Source of the DNA: Trichinella spiralis
Lineage: Eukaryota; Nematoda; Enoplea; Trichinellida; Trichinellidae
Assembly: GCA_000181795.3 (NCBI GenBank)
Contig: CM012955.1
Span: forward strand, 2,316,654 to 2,380,653
Direction of reading: 5' to 3'
Length of the DNA stretch: 64,000 bases
The notes under the pieces are model-generated. The model did not search any database, was not told the DNA's origin, and saw nothing but the letters and a program-made list of their open reading frames with translations. This document shows, one piece after another, positions 1-49,017 of the stretch. The translations under genes were made by a program, and so were the position numbers. Every line of letters starts with the position of its first letter. Position 1 is the stretch's first letter.

Positions 1-2235
1 TACTAAGCCTGGCCGATTTAAATTTTGGGTGATTTGCAATTCGAGAACGTTTCGCTTACGATTGAAAACGTAACTGACTGAAAATTCAGCATGACCACCT
101 TGGTGAACCCACTGGTCAAAAAAGGTACCTAAATCCATGCCACAAACATTTGAAACACAACGCGTAAATGAATCAAATGTTAAACACATGTTCATCCATG
201 CAGAAGGTTTCAAAGCCTCTTTCGAAGCAAGCATTGCCACGGACAACAATTTATTGAGAACCTAAAATCAAATAAAAATATATACATTATTTTTTCGTTC
301 TCTTACTTAATACATACAACAATAACTGTCATAGAATAAAGATATACAGTAACAGAATACAGTTATAAAATATACTAATGACGATTGATACCTGATAAAA
401 GAGTTCTTTGGTAATCTTGAATTCAAGTAGCCGAAATATTAAAACTGCTTTTTTCATAAGAATATCTGCATGCACTGGATTGTTAAAAAACGGAGAACTC
501 GAATCCGATATTCTGTCTTCATTTGATTCATCACGTGGCAGTAGCACTATACCTCCGTGCTTCTTTTCATAATCGATAACTTCGTCTAATAGCTTTGAAA
601 TTTGGTACATATATTCATTTTGTCCAAATGTTCGCTGAACATACATTTTGCTCAAATACAGTGCCAAACCCTCAGCAAACCAACGTTCCTGCCAGTTTCC
701 CTGTACCACAAAACAACCTTCAAAGAATGAAATGAAATTAAGCATAAAATATAAAACAAAAACTGAAATTCAACTTACCATAAAATTGTTGCGCAACACA
801 CACGGCAATCATTTCCCTGGTAATTGCTTGTTGATCAATCACTTTCTCATTAAACAAAAACGATGCATCAACTAATGCCAGTGTAGAATAAGATACACTA
901 TCCAGTGGAAGATCATGAACAAAAACCATCTTGAAAGATGAATGTGGATATCGCAAAGACAAAAGCTCTTCGTAAAATTCGAATACTCTGTTCAAATGCT
1001 CCATTGTACATTTTAAATCTGGAAGATAGTTTTTCAAACAAAAACACGACAACTCATTCATTTCAGGATGTACATATAGGTCTAGATTTCCAACAGCAAA
1101 ACCAATATTACATGCAGGTGTTGGCGAATTCATCAAATACAAGTAGGTTTTCTGTGTTAAACTATCATTTATGGATACATCCTGAATTTGAAAAAAAAAT
1201 AACAGTTAAACGAAATCATATACAAACGTTTCACTGTTTCCCAGTTGTACCTGCAAATTTCCCGAACAAACGGCAGTTAAATTCAAATCACAGGTAACAC
1301 TTAAACGCCAAAGACATAATTTTGACGGAGAATCAAAGCAAGGAAACCACGCTCGTGATTCGTAATTGGAATGTTTCCAACTGTACACATGACTATAATT
1401 TTTCCAAACTTTATTTTTATCCACGTTGTGAATAAATCGTACACCATAAGTTGGCTTTTCAACAATGAAATCAATGTGCACTCGAATACTTTTCATTGAA
1501 TCCACCTTGTGCCAAATTTCAGGCGGAATTCTCACTAAATACTTTCAACAACGTACATTCAACGATAAAAATCAAATTATATACTTCACTAAATGTTAAT
1601 GATTAGAACTGCAATTAATTTGCAAATTTTCTCAATTACAAAAGCAACTAACTGATATTTACCTTTCAATTCAGCAACACCAGTATCTGGATCCATTTTT
1701 TCTGCTAATTCAGATAACCCTTTAACGAGAGTTTCATTCGGCATTTCATCAAAATCACGATTCATAGTTTCAATAAAATTTTTGTGCTCAAAATAAGCGT
1801 TCGATCCTTTATTGAAATAAATCCGTTTTATTTTACACTGATTGGAACAATTCAAACAGATGACACGCTGTTTAGGAGCATTTGGAAAAACCATAATTTC
1901 AGTGAAGCATTCCAAAACGTGATTGACAAAATCTATCTTCGAAATGCATAAGACCTGTTCTACTGGCTTAAACAAGCCAACATTTGATAACGAATGATTG
2001 TTCACAGCTAAATAAATAAAATAAAAAAATAAATAATACATTAAAATATTTTTAAACAATCTATAAAAAATATTTTCATCCATAAATTAAAAAAAACAGC
2101 TGCATTGTTATCAATGTTTAAAATATTTTTAGAACTACAAAGCACTTAAAATACTAAAAAAAACATGTAGTTACCATCAGTAGAGTGGTTTATCGATGAT
2201 TTCTTGCTTGGTGGATTTTTTACAAGCACTTTCAT
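1..2235 (-). CDS. TAF2: TAF2, TFIID subunit 2 (N-terminal part, truncated by window edge)
   Basis: Subunit of the basal transcription factor TFIID that helps bind core-promoter DNA in the nucleus. Exons on the minus strand: 2175-2235, 1663-2007, 1251-1534, 779-1181, 392-717 and 1-261 (continuing off the edge). Phases are consistent and give 560 codons without a stop. The start is the ATG at 2233-2235, the first Met of exon 1. Family resemblance lies in the M1-aminopeptidase-like fold: 'VLCISKIDFVNHVLECFTEI', 'SRAWFPCFDSPSKLCLW', 'VFEFYEELLSLRYPHSSFKM', 'QRTFGQNEY' and 'FNRKRNVLELQI' all match TAF2. As in other TAF2 proteins, the HExxH zinc site of true peptidases is absent; the equivalent place reads 'VCVAQQFYG'. 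The acceptor of exon 5 is the unusual TTTGAAG. NDUFB9 lies 640 bp upstream on the same strand. The identity is firm; the C-terminal half is outside the window. Confidence 0.93.
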
Positions 2236-2875
2236 TTCAGAAAAAAACAATACTGCACAGAAAAAGTGGGCCAATTTTAAACTGTATGCTACAATAAGGG
2301 ATGGTCATTCATTGCAACAGTACAAAAGAAAATCATGTTTGAATGCGCAACAAAGAATATCTATGGCACAATCCATTGAGAAAAGTAGACATAAATTAAT
2401 TCATTAAACTTAAAAAATAAAATTGAAAGAATATTTATTGTTCATGCTTCGTTCACCATTTTACGTAGCATTGCCGTAAATAAAATAATGCACTGTAAAC
2501 AGTGTTTGAAAAAAAATTAAGTCAAGGTAGTTGTTTTTTTTTTTGAAAGTTAATTAAAAATATATAATCAATTACCAAAATCAATCATTTTAAGGATTTT
2601 TTCATATCCGCCTACATTGAGAGTTAAAATTAAGCTTCCATTTTACCATTGAACCTATATTTAAAAAGTTCATTGTGAAAAGATGTCATTATGCTCGTGT
2701 AATCTGCTTAAACAATAATTCAAAATGCAAACGTTTATTTGTGCACAAATGAACATGCAAAAAGGACAGTTTTTGCACCAGTGTATGCATGTTATACAAG
2801 TTAAAAGAAAACCATTCCAAATTTGCCACGTAGAACGCAAGTATATACGATTAACTGAAAGAGGAATAAATAATT

Positions 2876-3504
2876 TTAAACGGCTTTAGCTCGCCAGCTG
2901 TCTTTTATCTTTTCCCATTGACGAATGACTTCTTTCTTACGTTGTTCTCTTTTTGCAAAGTAGTGTGGATATTGGTCTCGTTCCGGATGCTCCCAGTCGA
3001 CGTCAACAATCTAAAATAAAATCGAAAGTACATTATTTAAAAATAACACACACTTACAGAATCTGGAGGAGGCTCTTCACGGTTGTAAGCGCATCCGTAC
3101 GGATCGTACGTATCTAAATGAATAAATATGAACACAAGAGTCGAGCAAAAAATATTTAATTTACATGTAAATGGAGATGGGTGACGTTTTGTCCACAACT
3201 CTTTCAAACCATCCAACAACAACTGCTGCTTTTTAACAGGATCCTTTTCACCTTTGTAGAAATCGAAACGTGCGCGCAACATCACCTTCTGGTAACGACA
3301 TTCTAATCTAAAAAAATCAACACAGTTTATCATCATTTGGAAACTTGAAAATTAAAAAAAAAAGAAATCAATTTCAACGAAGACTTCATCTCACACATCA
3401 GGAAGAAACCAGCTATCGCACAATCTCAATGCTGCTTTGTACAGACGACAAACTTTTTGACGATGCGATAATGCTTTGCTAAAATACCAGAGTGGGGTTT
3501 CCAT
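2876..3504 (-). CDS. NDUFB9: NADH dehydrogenase (complex I) subunit B9, LYR-family protein
   Basis: Accessory subunit of mitochondrial respiratory complex I, on the inner membrane. Four exons: 3395-3504, 3165-3307, 3058-3113 and 2876-3010, giving 147 residues against about 179 in human. The start is the ATG at 3502-3504; it gives a short leader before 'LSHRQKVCRLYKAALRLCDS', which carries the leucine-tyrosine-arginine (LYR) motif that binds acyl carrier protein. Further family blocks are 'VMLRARFDFYKGEKDP', 'LWTKRHPSPF', 'YDPYGCAYNREEPPPDS' and 'DWEHPERDQYPHYFAKREQ'. The C-terminus is shorter than in vertebrates. A TTCAG acceptor-like site about 20 nt upstream of the ATG could be a 5'-UTR or trans-splice site. 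Confidence 0.93.
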
Positions 3505-22949: not shown

Positions 22950-25900
22950 ATCTTGAAATTTTCAACTAAAACATAGATCATGTAGTTTAAAAAATGTTTC
23001 ACGTATAAACCTCACTTTCATTGCAAGATATGTGCTTAGCATCAAACGACAAACGTATAGATAAAGATTTTCTGTTACATTAAAAAAAAGCATTCTAAAT
23101 ACGAAATGCACATCAAGCAGCTAGTACGTCATGCCTACACCGCCAAAACATGTTGAAGGTCAACTTTCTCAGGTGATTCTTCTTACTATTAGTTTCTATG
23201 AGAAATGCAAGGTTTAAAAATTGATGTGCTAAATGCAAATAATGTTGTTTATATATTTCCGCGTCTTTCAATTAAATTTCATGTAAAAATTGTTATTGTT
23301 GTGAATAAATTATTATTATTATTATTATTACCATTACTTAAAATACTATTAAGAACGGTAGGTAAGAATGTATTACTGTAGAATGACAGTACGGTATTAA
23401 TTTTTGGTGCTGTAATAATTAAGGATAGCAATATTGAAAACTGCATGAAATGAATAATTTTAAATACATTGCTTTCTGAATTCAATATAATTAAGGGAGT
23501 TGACAACTATTATGTTTTATGCAAAATCTTTGAACAGTATTGGTGGTTAATTTGATGCAATTCAATTTAGTTTTATGAAATTATAATTTGTAAATTACAC
23601 ATACGAATAATAATGTAACGATGATAATTTTCATAATTTTGCGCTCAATGCATTTACAATTGAAACATCGAGACATGTTACATTTTACTTTTTCTGTACC
23701 ACTATTTTGAATGAGTTTTTACTACTACTTGAAAACGTTATCACTTGGCACTTTTTTATGATTTTGATAATAGAAAAGTTTTTATGTTTCACTTGAAACA
23801 GCATTTTACTGAAAGAATGCAACAAAAACAACTTCAGTTTTTCTGCTGAGCAACGAAATTGTAAAACTTGTACAAATGGAAAATCAGTTAATACTGCTGA
23901 GAAGGCAAAATCTGTCAATTTTTGTTTTCTGCTTATGAAACATAACGCAACTACAGTTGAGCATAAAATACTATGCAAAATAGCAGAAAAACAAGCCGTT
24001 AAAATGCATTTGTCAAAAAGTGAAATGAAAAAATCACTGATAAAGACCTGACGTCATAGCGTATCGTTTTAGCATGACAATCAGATATAAAAAGTAAATG
24101 TTCGATACAAACAAATTTATCAGTTTGGCTTTATCTACTTCTTATTCGTTTTTTTTCTGAAATGTTTTCAAGTTTGAAACAATAAATAACACGTAAATTT
24201 TTATACATGCTTCTGGAAAGATGCCGCGAGAAGCACAAGCTTTGACGTGCAAGTTGTAAAATGCAGTTTGATGCTTGAAAAAGAATAAAAACTTGCTCTC
24301 ATCGAAACATTAAATTGAAATTAATTTTACTGCCGCTGTTCTACATCGGTTTTAATAATATTTTTGAAGATCAAAAACAAAAATACATATTAAACTATTG
24401 TAAATGATCTTTTATAAATATGCTTAATGGATTTTACTTCAATTATTTTAATAATTCATTCACACAAAAAATGATATTACAAATTGAACTCATCAAAGTT
24501 GAAAAAAAATAATTTTTTGGCAAGAATAATTAAGTGAAAAATATCCTGCCGAGTAATCAATAAAGGACAAAAGCCAAAATGGAATGGGTTGTAGTTTTAC
24601 ATGAACTACATTCCATTTAATAATAAAAATAAAAATATTATTATTATTATTATACCAACGCTTCTCTGCAAATGAAATTAATGATTTTCTTGAAAACAAG
24701 AAAAGATAAATCAAAGTAGCAATGTGACATTTGAGACAAAAAAGGAGGAAGAGGAAGAAGTAGAAGAAGAGGTAATCAAATGTGCATTGTGATAGAATGA
24801 AAAAAATATAATAGAATAAAAATTATAAAAAAAAGTCATATTTAAAGAGAAAAGTAGAAGATTTTTACTTGTAAACAGAAACTAGCTGACCTATTTGCCG
24901 GCAGTTTTCAAAAGCCATTTTTTTATGGCAACAGTTAAATTTGTAACGGCCAATAGATCTCACGTAATGGCCAACATGATGGTCATGCGTCCTGAATTTA
25001 TGACGTCTTCAATTTGTTATTCAACCCACTCCACCAATCAACGCTCTTAAAGCACCAATAAAGATGGCGTGCTAGTCATCTGTATAGCAATTTATTTCTG
25101 TTTACCAGCGCTGTGAACAAGTAATAGCCGGGTTTCCTTGAGCCGTGCTGCGTCTCAATCTCCTTCACTTCTGCAAAATGCTGCTTTTCAATTCCATTCC
25201 ATTCCACCCATGTATTATTTTGCATAATTAACAACAGACAAAACTGCTTCCGTATCCGAATATATTGTTTATATTCGACACAAAGAGAATCCAATGTTCA
25301 CGTTCAGTTACCCTGTAGCACCGAGCTGTGTGTCTGCATTTTGGTACACACTGTCGGTTACAGGTTAAATGAATTTGAAGCAACACATCTTCACCTTTTC
25401 AACTGATGTCTCATGTTGATTTTATCGCTTACAGTCCATAACATTGCATATCAATAAATTCAAATAAACGGTCGTTGAAAATTTATTACAACATGCCATT
25501 TTTTTAGGAATGGTCAAAGTTGGAATAAATTTTCGCTACGTTGTCTTATTGGTCGTCTATTGCAGTATCTTATTGGATGATCATGCCGTTGTCTTTTTGG
25601 TTTTTCTTGTCTAATTGTTGATTGGAACAAAATTTTCCATTTTGATTAGTTGCATTATTTTTTATTTCATTGGTCCAAATATTTCCTTTTACTATTTTCA
25701 CAACTTTAGTAGTGAAATTTTTATATATTCCATTAAATCTATATTTATCACACTTTGTTTTTTTCACATATTATTTATTGAGAATTTTATACTTTGTAAT
25801 GAAAAGTATTTCTTCTATTATTTTATATTTTATTGTACCACAGTGAAGTTATGTTAAATGTGATAGTAATAGGTGAGCAAACACAACAAAAAATAAGTAA

Positions 25901-44366: not shown

Positions 44367-47300
44367 TCAGTCACGGGAAGCTTCAATCACGCGCATGGTG
44401 TTAGTAAAGCCGGCCCCTTGACGCCATCCAGTGACCACAACAAGCATATCTCCGCCATGAATGAAGCCGCGCTCCTTTCCTGCCTTGATACCAAATGTAA
44501 TACGCTTATCAACATCCGTTGGCCAATCAGCATCACGAGGCTCTAAAAAATGAAAAAAACCCATCAACCAATGCAAAACAACACACACACACACACAATT
44601 CAAGCACAATAATCGTGCAACGAATGTTCGCGTGCATGAAACGTGCGAATGTAACTAACAACCAATATTTACAAAAGGAAGAAATAACCAAATAGTAATT
44701 TTATACTGGCAAAAATACGTTTAAAGAAATACATACAATACATTCAGTTGATATCAAACAACAATTTTAAAACATCTACATGTATTACCAAGCATCATGC
44801 ATGGCAGTATTCCGTAATGTAAGTGTAGACTTTTGGCAACTTGCCAATCTCGCACAACCGACAGAACAATACAAGGAGGTCGATATTTGGACACCAACGT
44901 GGCCGTTCTGTAAAAAAAAGAAAAAAACAAGACACTACATTTAAAAAAAGAAAAACATCAGATTCGAAATAAACAATAATATTAGAAGCAAAATGAATGA
45001 TGATGTATGATGATAACGAACGAATGAAAAATAAGAAAACGCACAAGCGAGTCAATCGATTGAGAACGGCCCAAAACTGCTACTACTACCACTACTACTA
45101 TTACTACTACAACGACTAATAATAATAATAATAATAATAATAATAAGCATAACATCCAGTGCCAATCGAGTTATTAATAATCATCATCACTAAGATACAC
45201 AATTAGTGCAGTTATTTGAAGAATATACGAAAATAATAAACAAGATGGAAAATAACACGCAATTTGCGTACGATCAAATAGAATTGGATTAATTCCATAA
45301 AACAAGTGCAACTGTCGGCAGTAGATGGGATTACGTGTTACAGCCAAAATTGGGCACATCGGACGATATTGAGACATCAGCTCAGCAGATCTGAAATAGC
45401 CACACTCTGAAAGTAACAATGGACACTTTTTCTGAAAAAAAAGAACAAATCCTTCCCCTAAGAATCGGAACACAACAATTCCAACCAAGTTCCTGTTTCA
45501 TCAGGAAAGCTTTTTTTAAAAAATTATTTGAGCAACAAGAGGAAGATTAAACGGAGAGGAAAATTTTTTTCGTTTCAACCTAGTATAGTATACTGAAGAT
45601 GAAACGTTTCTGTTCACAAGTTCAGCAAGCTCAACTTGTATAATCTGTTCTATGAATAATACATAAATCTGGTAATGACAGAAAATGGAAATCCAATTCT
45701 TCTGTTCTGCAACAATCAACAAACAGCATTGTGCGTTTTTCTCTACATATATTAAAAATTAGGGTAACAGAAAAAAAGTGTAAAATGAACAAAACAAAGT
45801 TTCCCGATGAATTTTTTTAAAAAATTCTGAAAATTTAATATTGAAATCAAAAATAATAAAAAGAAAATCCATTACCGTCCGGTGGTAGTGACGAGAATTA
45901 TTGCGACTGCATTGCAACTAACGGCTGCGGATGTGGCTGCAATAGCGATAGTGTGAGCCGCATCTGTCGGTCTAGGTGTGATCATCAGCAATTCGTTAAA
46001 AAAGCTATTATGATAATGGGCCGCTTCAGCCTGACGACAAATCTAAAAATTAAAACAAAGAATATATTTTTATATTGAAAGCACTTTCAAGTAAGTTGCG
46101 AAATAAAATTGTACTTCGTGCATAATTTGTAACGCTTCCAAAGGATACTGGCCTTTGGCCGTTTCTCCAGAAAGCATGACACAATCGGCTCCATCCAGTA
46201 CAGCATTAGCAATATCACTGCTCTCAGCTCGAGTTGGTCGTGGTTTGCTGATCATCGACTCCAACATCTGTGTAGCGCATATGACCGGCTTGCCGGCAAC
46301 TTTACATTTAGCAATGATCGCTTTTTGGGCAATGAAAACTTGCTCGGGCGGAATTTCTATACCCAAATCACCACGCGCAACCATAATTCCATCCGCAGCT
46401 TCAATGATCTCATCCACACTACAATTAAAATTATAATTCAACAATCATTAGAAAAAAGGAACACAAAAAAAATTCTTCTCACTTTGTTACACCTTCGTGA
46501 TTTTCGATTTTTGCCACAATCTTGATGTGCTTGCCTTCTTCGCCCAAAACTTTACGCAACACTCGAACTCCTTCGGCGTTACGAATGAACGATGCAAATA
46601 CCATATCCACCTTAAGATTACTTAATTAATTAATTAATTAAAATGAATAGTGAAATTCATTACATTATTCTTGACGGCAAATTGCAAATCTCGAATGTCT
46701 TTATCCGATACGGCTGGTAAATCTACTTTCGCACCAGGAAGGTTGACACCTTTGCGACTTCCCAACTTTCCTCCATTCTCAACTACACAAGTCAAACTGT
46801 CTGCACCTGTTGTTTAAAAATAAAAATTGAACAATAAAATTAATCATAATGTGAAAATGATAATGCATAAAAATGATGCATTATTCATGTTTACCAATTT
46901 CGCGAACACGCAAACAGATCAAACCATCGTCAATGAAAACGCGCATATCCTTTTTCAATACTTTTCCAATGTTTTTGTAATCGACATATATAATCTTTTC
47001 CGTGCAACACATTTGATATTTTTCGTCAGTTGTCAATATGATCTCATCACCTCTGCGCAAGTCGACTTCGGTTTCAGCGCCCTAAACAAAAAATATCCAT
47101 TCAATGAAGTGATGAAGAAAATTAAACTTTTTCTAAATTCAAGTATAAAAATTGACCGAAAAAAAAGAATCCATCAATCAATTACAACATACAGATTCAA
47201 AAACGCCAGTACGAATTTCTGGACCTTTAGTATCCAAAGCCAACGCGACCACTCTTGGCTCGTTGAAACAGCTGACTGCAGCGTGCAAGTTTTCAATCGT

Positions 47301-47938
47301 TTCCGCATGATACTTAAAATATTAAAATAAAAATTATCCAAAAAGATCGAGCGTTTGAAATTTTGTAACAGCAAAAGACGAAGCCGAAGAAATTGAAAAA
47401 ACTGCATCATCAAAAGATAGAAGGATCAATTTTGCAAAGAGGCAATTTTTCATCATTTTAAATTTCGAATCAAAAACAAATTTCCTCATTCCAACTATGA
47501 ACAACCAATCAACGAAGCCTAAATGAATGGAATAATTTGCGTAAAAATGCAGAACACAACACGACAGGCTTCATCAATTGTAAAAAGATTTCAATCAGAA
47601 TAACAAACAGTGAGCACATTTGCTCGAAGTGAAAAATTAATTCCTCTATTCATCTATGGATGCTTATCAAAAGCTGAAGTCTCGATTTTTTTCAATGCAC
47701 TGTCGGTCGACAAATAAAACTCTACCGCAGCTCATTAGCGCTCTGCTTATTTCCTCACGTTTGGCATTCGAAATATCGATTTTGAACAAAATCATTAACA
47801 GAAATGATGAACATTTCAATTCACCCATCATACATAACAAGAGATGAAAGAGAAGGTAGAAGGAAAAAGCAGAAAGAAGGAAAAGATAACTGAAAATTCA
47901 ATAACAAATCAAAAAAAAATATATATAATATTCACTTA

Positions 47939-47973
<35 letters not shown>

Positions 47974-49017
47974 CTGATCCGAACAAAAACACTGCACTAT
48001 TCCAAATGAGCAATTCAGTCCAGTACTTTACTCACATTTCAAATTTCATAAATACTGACATCCGTAGGTATAAGTTTGATAAATATAAAAAATGAAATAA
48101 TAAAAGAAGAAAAAAAGGAATTTCTTTTTAAAAAAATATCACATTAAAAACAATACATGCATGTATGGATTTTCGGAATATAATAATGAAACAAAAAGAA
48201 AACATATTATATTTACCTCGTGCGAACCATGGGAAAAATTCAATCTTGCAATGTTCATTCCACTGACAATCATCTTTACCAACATGTCGACAGATCTTGA
48301 TGATGGTCCTGAAACAGAATAAGTAAAATTTAAAATAAATTAAAAAATATCAAAAAAAATCCTCTGAACCTATAGTGCAAATGATGCCAGTTTTTCGAAC
48401 AGGAATCTTCTCGTCGTCGATGTTCAAATGGCACAAATGCTCGAGCATGGTCTTGGCGTACGGCTTAGCCGCACCCTGCTCTTGGCGGTAATACGAACCG
48501 GAACGTTCCTCGTCCAAAGTCAATCGTCGAAACATTTTCTTTTTCGCAGCAATACGTACTGGATTTAAACCTGGCACAACGTTCGATGCGGAAGAATCGC
48601 TCTCAGCGGAAATCGACTATATTAAATAAACAGAAAAAAAACACCATACAAATAATGGATAATATCAATTGAGTTTTTCTTTAAATTTACTACAAACAAA
48701 ACACGTATATTTTTGCATAAAATAAAAATACAACTACTAGCTGACGACGAAGTAGAAGAAAAAATTATTCAAAGTGGAAATTCAATCAATGCACCAAACA
48801 TATGCAATATCAATGCACCAATAAGAATAAGATTGAATTTTTTGTTTGCACCGTGATGAAATTTCACAACATACATCATATCTGCTAACCGAAAAAAATG
48901 ATCACTTGAAAATACCTTTTGCGCTTGAAAGCTGTCGACAAAATGTGAGGGTACAAATAATTCTAAATTTTTCAACAACTCCGGAATAAATTCTTCATTC
49001 CGGCGATCCATCAGCAT
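44367..49017 (-). CDS. Pyruvate kinase, with two mutually exclusive candidate exons
   Basis: Cytosolic glycolytic enzyme converting phosphoenolpyruvate and ADP to pyruvate and ATP. Exons: 48916-49017, 48370-48616, 48217-48308, 47193-47312, 46895-47081, 46664-46806, 46483-46610, 46115-46418, 45876-46042, then either 45272-45390 (A) or 44789-44907 (B), then 44367-44542. Either choice gives 594 residues in one frame. Catalytic-site blocks: '[15 protein letters not shown]', '[12 protein letters not shown]', 'FIDDGLI', '[11 protein letters not shown]' (the acid-base Lys region), '[12 protein letters not shown]' and '[10 protein letters not shown]', then '[20 protein letters not shown]'. The last exon keeps the Trp and Arg of the fructose-1,6-bisphosphate site ('[11 protein letters not shown]') and '[14 protein letters not shown]'. 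Exon 1 is supported only by its ATG, donor and phase, so the N-terminal about 34 residues are the weakest part; other first exons could exist upstream. Confidence 0.95.
44789..44907 (-). other. Pyruvate kinase alternative exon B
   Basis: 119 bp, acceptor TTTTTTTACAG and donor GTAATA, with the same entry and exit phases as exon A. It encodes '[20 protein letters not shown]' then '[19 protein letters not shown]', co-linear with exon A without gaps and identical at 17 of 39 positions. It keeps YRP, the Arg after it, LHL and YGI-P. The open frame, splice sites and retained family residues argue against a dead exon. Confidence 0.88.
45063..45149. repeat. TAC and AAT trinucleotide repeats between the two alternative exons
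   Basis: TAC/CTA repeats (about 45075-45112) followed by an uninterrupted AAT run (about 45117-45147), in the intron separating exons A and B of pyruvate kinase. Confidence 0.95.
45272..45390 (-). other. Pyruvate kinase alternative exon A
   Basis: 119 bp, acceptor GCTATTTCAG and donor GTACGC, entering in phase 2 and leaving in phase 1. It encodes residues 498-536 of the C-domain: '[20 protein letters not shown]' then '[19 protein letters not shown]'. This is the version closest to pyruvate kinases in general (TRN after the YRP block). Confidence 0.9.
47940..47973. repeat. (AAT)n microsatellite
   Basis: About eleven AAT units in the 0.9-kb intron 3 of pyruvate kinase. Confidence 0.95.

Follow-up and report, generated by a model that had tools for sequence, protein, structure and literature searches.

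Does the intron-bearing pyruvate kinase gene of Trichinella spiralis carry two interchangeable versions of one internal exon and, if so, how old is the pair and what would an exchange alter in the enzyme? The question arises from a stretch of 64,000 nucleotides (the window; C3:2316654-2380653 in a genome of 53.1 Mb and 14 contigs), in which a first-pass annotation had pointed to two exons of equal length, here called A and B, immediately downstream of the loop that binds fructose-1,6-bisphosphate (FBP). The pair was checked base by base and then compared with relatives, with the structure and regulator sites of human PKM2, and with known exon switches.

Gene model and the 119-bp exon pair

The exons of the gene, which lies on the minus strand, were assembled by hand from splice sites and homology (Table 1). 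The gene was identified as pyruvate kinase by matching PF00224 (PK barrel) and PF02887 (PK_C) exon by exon above curated cut-offs; residues 72-590 of the isoform containing exon B aligned to human PKM2 with an E value of 8.6e-200. The product of the first coding exon in Table 1 was identical to the N-terminus of Trichuris muris protein P0010 at 16/34 residues, a match also obtained by tblastn. 5' of 48616, at least three stretches are candidates to serve as alternative first coding regions (55441-55206, 52852-52751, and 49017-48916, minus strand); they are spread over approximately 6.4 kb, and each matches the N-terminus of a different database protein. The presence of several such regions over this distance suggests alternative promoters. 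The 120-bp exon is absent from three Trichinella database models (P0002, P0003, and P0004), and an AAG acceptor such as it carries was also seen at the exon starting at 46610. Elsewhere in the window (25298-25380, plus strand), a match to the mir-57 microRNA precursor family was recorded with a score of 44.1 against a gathering score of 44.

Table 1. Features of the pyruvate kinase gene and of the exon pair, in positions of the window
Feature	Position	Strand	Basis
One of several possible first coding exons (...FQAQK)	48916..49017	-	gene model
Coding exon, 247 bp	48370..48616	-	gene model
Coding exon, 92 bp	48217..48308	-	gene model
Coding exon, 120 bp, AAG acceptor	47193..47312	-	gene model
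Coding exon, 187 bp	46895..47081	-	gene model
Coding exon, 143 bp	46664..46806	-	gene model
Coding exon, 128 bp	46483..46610	-	gene model
Coding exon, 304 bp	46115..46418	-	gene model
Common exon 5' of the pair, 167 bp, ending within the Arg codon of TTTGR	45876..46042	-	gene model and PKM2 alignment
Exon A, canonical version, 119 bp	45272..45390	-	splice sites, frame, A-type counterpart in Trichuris muris P0010
A-B intron, 364 bp, with (TTA)n then (GTA)n-like simple repeat	44908..45271	-	sequence
Exon B, variant version, 119 bp	44789..44907	-	splice sites, frame, counterparts in Trichinella and Trichuris suis P0009
Three GCACG motifs 3' of exon B (starts 44646, 44635, 44618), candidate FOX-1/ASD-1 sites	44614..44646	-	hypothesis
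(GT)n tract 3' of exon B, candidate SUP-12/CELF-type site	44582..44597	-	hypothesis
Last coding exon, common to both isoforms; counterparts of W482, R489, and the 514-522 loop	44367..44542	-	gene model

The first-pass annotation had described two 119-bp exons with matching phases and good splice sites, encoding co-linear versions of the same 39 residues, and the base-level check agreed with it throughout. Exon A is flanked by the acceptor ...TATTTCAG/A and the donor GATC/GTACGC, and exon B by the acceptor ...TTTTTACAG/A and the donor CTTG/GTAATA, where the slash marks the exon boundary (AG/GT in both cases). CG at the 3' end of the common upstream exon and the first A of either exon A or exon B give CGA, placing the junction inside the Arg codon of the FBP loop, as had been proposed. 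Aligned without gaps, the two exons are identical at 17/39 whole codons (18/40 with the split Arg) and at 55/119 nucleotides. Transcripts with only A or only B each have an open frame of 1785 nt (594 aa) without internal stop; a transcript with both exons (1904 nt) is frame-broken, in line with the earlier claim that joint use shifts the frame, and so is one with neither (1666 nt).

As a chance control, AG-N119-GT stretches were collected from both strands of the window (n = 290), of which 31, A and B included, were open in the phase of the pair. Identity to A among these was 17/39 for B and 6/39 for the runner-up, ruling out exon B as a chance match. No third copy of the exon was found when both isoforms and the intronless paralog described below were run against the whole window by permissive tblastn. 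When the exon-B peptide was run against the T. spiralis genome, the best candidates (three scored) were B, A, and the corresponding segment of the intronless paralog. Exons A and B are thus adjacent, homologous, equal in length, and identical in phase, and encode the same region of the protein; the frame break upon joint inclusion or skipping is sufficient, although not required, for assignment to the mutually exclusive class. The existence of a real alternative exon pair in the Trichinella pyruvate kinase gene is certain.

The criterion used for this class is that junction reads bridge each exon and do not productively join both, and many human pairs are described as carrying a similar frame penalty (PMC5740500). 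In the Trichinella gene, the frame break provides a built-in penalty for joint use: pre-mRNA splicing would pick one exon per transcript, and frame-broken products would be lost. Two other exclusion devices were considered and set aside. Pairing between introns (three introns) gave best helix scores of 26, 28, and 24, none of which exceeded the range of 15 Markov resamplings each (means 24.9, 24.1, and 23.1; maxima 34, 28, and 29), the second intron comparison equalling its maximum; RNA pairing was rejected on this ground. The A-B intron was judged too long for steric exclusion. Its simple repeat, seen by eye at about 45146-45073 (minus strand), is possibly length-variable between strains.

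Candidate splicing-factor sites were sought by scanning ten motifs in five stretches. The three GCACG motifs 3' of exon B fall within 33 nt; the two strands of the window together hold 52 GCACG sites, and no other three of them lie within 60 nt. The Markov chance of at least three GCACG in an intron of that length was 0.0001 (20000 draws), before correction for the motifs tried. In Caenorhabditis elegans, FOX-1 is reported to act via GCAUG and GCACG (PMC7787662). One TGCATG lies within exon B itself. The (GT)n tract is of a kind that we take to be recognized by a SUP-12/CELF-type protein. As splicing-factor sites, the GCACG and GT elements are leads only.

The pair would not be strictly exclusive if some transcripts used both exons via a cryptic donor in A. 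Protein P0001 of T. patagoniensis (645 aa, representing a 32-member cluster) has this form: a truncated A is fused to B through a cryptic in-frame donor after nt 87 of A (45390-45304 used), with the frame preserved in this annotated product. An A-B hybrid would, however, duplicate most of a compact folded unit, and against it stand the entries with one exon only, B in P0002-P0007 and P0009 and A in P0010. The P0001 fusion is probably an annotation artefact, and use of both exons by some transcripts is very improbable.

Conservation of both exons and the intronless paralog

Relatives were searched at the protein level. With the exon-B region, 13 candidates were scored, 9 of them at an E value of 0.001 or better; these comprised eight Trichinella entries, in which exon B recurs at 98-100% identity, and one Trichuris suis entry. 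With the exon-A region, one of two candidates was returned, namely T. patagoniensis P0001. The C-terminal part of the Trichuris suis B-type protein, used as query, gave 99 of 198 candidates, of which 11 were from Trichinella or Trichuris and 88 from elsewhere, including many arthropods and nematodes and some unnamed metagenome entries. The 40-residue segment was obtained from 85 of these 88 (P0084, P0098, and P0099 were left out). The comparison entries are protein models that have been clustered and that vary in quality; in P0096 both exons are missing, and P0008 lacks the 3' part of the upstream exon and the 5' part of B. The T. spiralis pyruvate kinase P0002 equals the B-only product of the gene model from MFRRL on, exact over 493 residues, with the 120-bp exon omitted. 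None of the nine Trichinella entries is A-only, and clustering at 90% may hide such entries.

Window A was 30/40 identical to the A type of Trichuris muris (P0010) and window B 32/40 identical to the B type of Trichuris suis (P0009); within Trichinella, window B and T. pseudospiralis B were identical at 39/40. Between types, identity was 14/40 for Trichuris muris A and Trichuris suis B, next to the 18/40 of the two window exons. Outside the pair, between-genus identity was 429/555 in the A comparison and 414/521 in the B comparison; both are summed per-exon counts in which residue 117 is counted twice, and the first exon, which differs in the B comparison, was left out there. With 75% for A and 80% for B between genera, the two exons are constrained like their neighbours. 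In a tree built without the segment, the Trichinella and Trichuris sequences form one clade (SH-aLRT 96). In the tree of the 40 columns, the A sequences group (96/93) and the B sequences group weakly (83/54), next to the paralog; A and B as one clade is absent from this tree, yet not rejected (AU p 0.27).

The split between Trichinella and Trichuris has been dated to approximately 281 million years ago, with a 95% interval of 384-204 (PMC4740406). Between the genera, each type has been conserved to about the same degree as the remainder of the protein. The pair is therefore most likely older than this split, and its great age is well supported. The simplest reading is that the common ancestor of Trichinella and Trichuris had both exons; that one Trichuris gene holds both is an inference, as each version was seen in a predicted protein of a different Trichuris species. 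The A and B sequences differ by fixed residues at 11 positions (437, 443, 450, 452, 454, 456, 457, 462, 466, 472, and 474), as judged from two A and three B sequences, and position 449 is Pro in A and Ile or Leu in B. Of the 12 B-derived states, each of the 85 other sequences shares at most one; this word-based search, which may miss such cases, thus showed no B-like exon beyond Trichinella and Trichuris.

Exon B is the more diverged of the two, as had been noted: mean identity to the 85 other pyruvate kinases was 17.9/40 for window B and 21.4/40 for window A. At the 18 positions conserved in at least 80% of these sequences, B departs at 6 (437, 449, 450, 462, 467, and 474) and A at 2 (467 and 474). 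Its greater distance from the consensus would fit a view of exon B as a decaying or non-functional duplicate of A, and the first-pass annotation had named loss or decay of B in relatives as the observation that would count against the pair. At the protein level, however, both exons are conserved in relatives, B being kept in Trichinella and in Trichuris suis. Neutral sequence is not expected to survive a split of approximately 281 My (PMC4740406), so that the conservation of B contradicts its decay; B is, moreover, open, in phase, and bounded by AG/GT splice sites. Decay of B is therefore extremely improbable, and we hold with confidence that both exons are functional and alternatively used.

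A second pyruvate kinase gene, intronless, was found at C2:8651511-8652506 (coding 1381-3009 of the locus, plus strand). The published TsPKM (KRY30732.1) corresponds to this paralog and not to the A/B gene: the product has 542 aa, 58.48 kDa, and a pI of 7.16, and 8/8 listed active-site residues match, the length, mass, pI, and eight active-site residues of TsPKM being those given in PMC9621426. The FBP loop of the paralog reads TNTGAS, without Arg. As TsPKM is a different gene lacking this Arg, work on drug targets has to treat two pyruvate kinase genes separately, and probably also two isoforms of the intron-bearing one. The paralog has 3/12 B-derived and 0/8 A-derived states, and the probability of at least three B-state matches by chance was 0.018 or 0.042 under two crude nulls. 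The 40-column tree gives it a long branch next to B (82/83, unstarred), whereas a position with A was not rejected either (AU p 0.34). The paralog may have arisen long ago as a retrocopy of B-form mRNA.

The swapped unit and its possible effect

By alignment to human PKM2, the swapped segment corresponds to residues 436-475. Predicted structural models of Trichuris muris A (P0010) and T. pseudospiralis B (P0005) have the same helix-strand-helix-strand order, with a pLDDT of approximately 90-95 in this block, and the B model matches PKM2 crystal chains with a best TM-score of 0.90 by query length. The first-pass annotation had proposed that the pair exchanges the C-domain unit adjacent to the FBP loop and had pointed to the Ser/Thr change behind the Arg. 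The former part stands, the unit in the models beginning at the FBP-loop Arg. The Ser/Thr change carries less weight than was given to it, as Thr occupies position 437 in a fraction of 0.16 of the 85 other sequences.

Identity to the FBP site of PKM2 extends to the counterparts of T432, G435, R436, W482, and R489 and to most of the 514-522 loop; K433 and S434 are replaced by Thr, P517 and S519 differ, and S437 is Ser in A and Thr in B. Some of these positions are ones that we presume to belong to the site. For the others, the assignment follows PMC10004559 and PMC6636998. The loop up to the Arg and the counterparts of W482, R489, and 514-522 sit in shared exons. With these positions shared and Thr present at 437 in other pyruvate kinases, there are better readings than a simple on/off switch by FBP, and loss of FBP binding through the change from Ser to Thr is not favoured. 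In human PKM2, S437Y is unable to bind FBP and H464A is unable to bind serine (PMC4072945); in one crystal form, a hydrogen bond runs from K422 to Y444 of the adjacent subunit (PMC4383751), and I469 is described as part of an amino-acid network (PMC10004559). The segment carries counterparts of H464 and I469 (amino-acid pocket) and of Y444 (C-C interface). H464 is kept in both A and B, and Y444 is Tyr in both window exons and Lys in Trichuris muris A. With counterparts of the FBP site, the C-C interface, and the amino-acid pocket in one segment, the swap touches all three regulatory contacts.

The A isoform would then be the ordinary enzyme, and exon B would replace the helix-strand-helix-strand unit at the place where FBP loop, C-C interface, and amino-acid pocket meet. 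Both isoforms probably still bind FBP. As the FBP-site residues are largely retained in both, altered amino-acid sensing or tetramer coupling would be likelier than lost FBP binding, and the swap would most likely retune amino-acid effects and the coupling of regulators to the active tetramer, by stage or tissue. That the isoforms differ mainly in allostery or oligomer coupling, and not in catalysis, stability, or location, we regard as an evenly balanced proposition. As A and B retain most known regulator-contact residues, the isoforms may differ little in function. The two exons could accordingly be functional and their isoforms biochemically near-equal, the pair being kept for expression, stability, tissue-specific splicing, or partners. 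Conservation of H464 and of the checked FBP-site positions (437 being Ser or Thr) is compatible with this, as is the statement that mutually exclusive exons modulate and do not considerably alter function (PMC5740500). Against near-equality stand the 11 fixed positions and the departure of B at 6 of the 18 well-conserved positions, 449 and 462 among them, where A departs at only 2 of the 18; we consider it less likely than not.

On a bolder reading, exon B would favour a poorly active or inhibited enzyme, and in hypoxic host stages phosphoenolpyruvate would flow to PEPCK and malate dismutation. The branch point at phosphoenolpyruvate is where pyruvate kinase acts. A parallel exists in coq-2, where a mutually exclusive exon switch acts in a helminth metabolic enzyme (PMC7434440, PMC8659336). 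The B variant was not seen, however, in other worms with anaerobic stages, the limit of 1/12 B-derived residues applying to all 85 sequences, several parasitic nematodes included, in a search that could miss it; a diversion of this kind is unlikely. Similarly improbable as a whole is a wider account, in which trichinellids would have evolved their own PKM-like switch more than approximately 200 My ago, located one exon further downstream than in vertebrates and sharing phosphoenolpyruvate between pyruvate and the anaerobic malate route by host stage, and an intronless germ-line copy of the B mRNA would have become TsPKM. For the locus as a whole, we prefer the explanation that the intron-bearing pyruvate kinase gene of Trichinella contains a mutually exclusive exon pair of ancient origin, and we consider it likely.

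Comparison with known exon switches

No account of this pair was found in the titles and abstract openings of the open-access literature searched, among the matches listed. Among invertebrates, the pyruvate kinase gene14576 of Daphnia pulex is described as having alternative exon sets in its 3' part, with use of exons 1-9 or exons 1-7 plus 10-11 (PMC7318467). From this description, the Daphnia gene differs from the Trichinella gene in having alternative sets of last exons and not a single internal pair.

The best precedent for an exon switch in a metabolic enzyme of worms is nematode coq-2, whose exons 6a and 6e are mutually exclusive and homologous (PMC7434440) and control rhodoquinone (PMC7434440, PMC8659336). 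One canonical and one diverged exon are found in coq-2 as in the Trichinella gene. The enzyme and pathway are different, and the substrate switch of coq-2 has been shown genetically, whereas retuning by the Trichinella pair is a proposal.

PKM1/PKM2 is the textbook example of an exon swap that retunes a glycolytic enzyme. Exons 9 and 10 of vertebrate PKM belong to the same enzyme and domain as the Trichinella pair and are likewise tandem, homologous, and equal in length, and their joint use breaks the frame. The vertebrate and the Trichinella unit meet at the FBP-loop Arg, but the duplicated exon of Trichinella is the next one downstream. The common exon 5' of the pair, which we take to be the counterpart of the duplicated vertebrate exon and whose length is presumably that of the human PKM pair exons, is single and shared. 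No second copy of it was found by permissive tblastn of both isoforms against the window, bearing out the first-pass view that the pair lies at a different exon from that of vertebrates. Given the different lineage, the origin is taken as independent. The swap in the neighbouring exon, very old and apparently of separate origin, offers a natural comparison of two lineages that replaced adjoining parts of one regulatory interface. Both the idea of splice control of pyruvate kinase as a recurrent solution and the use by a parasite of a splice switch between aerobic and anaerobic life become testable with it.
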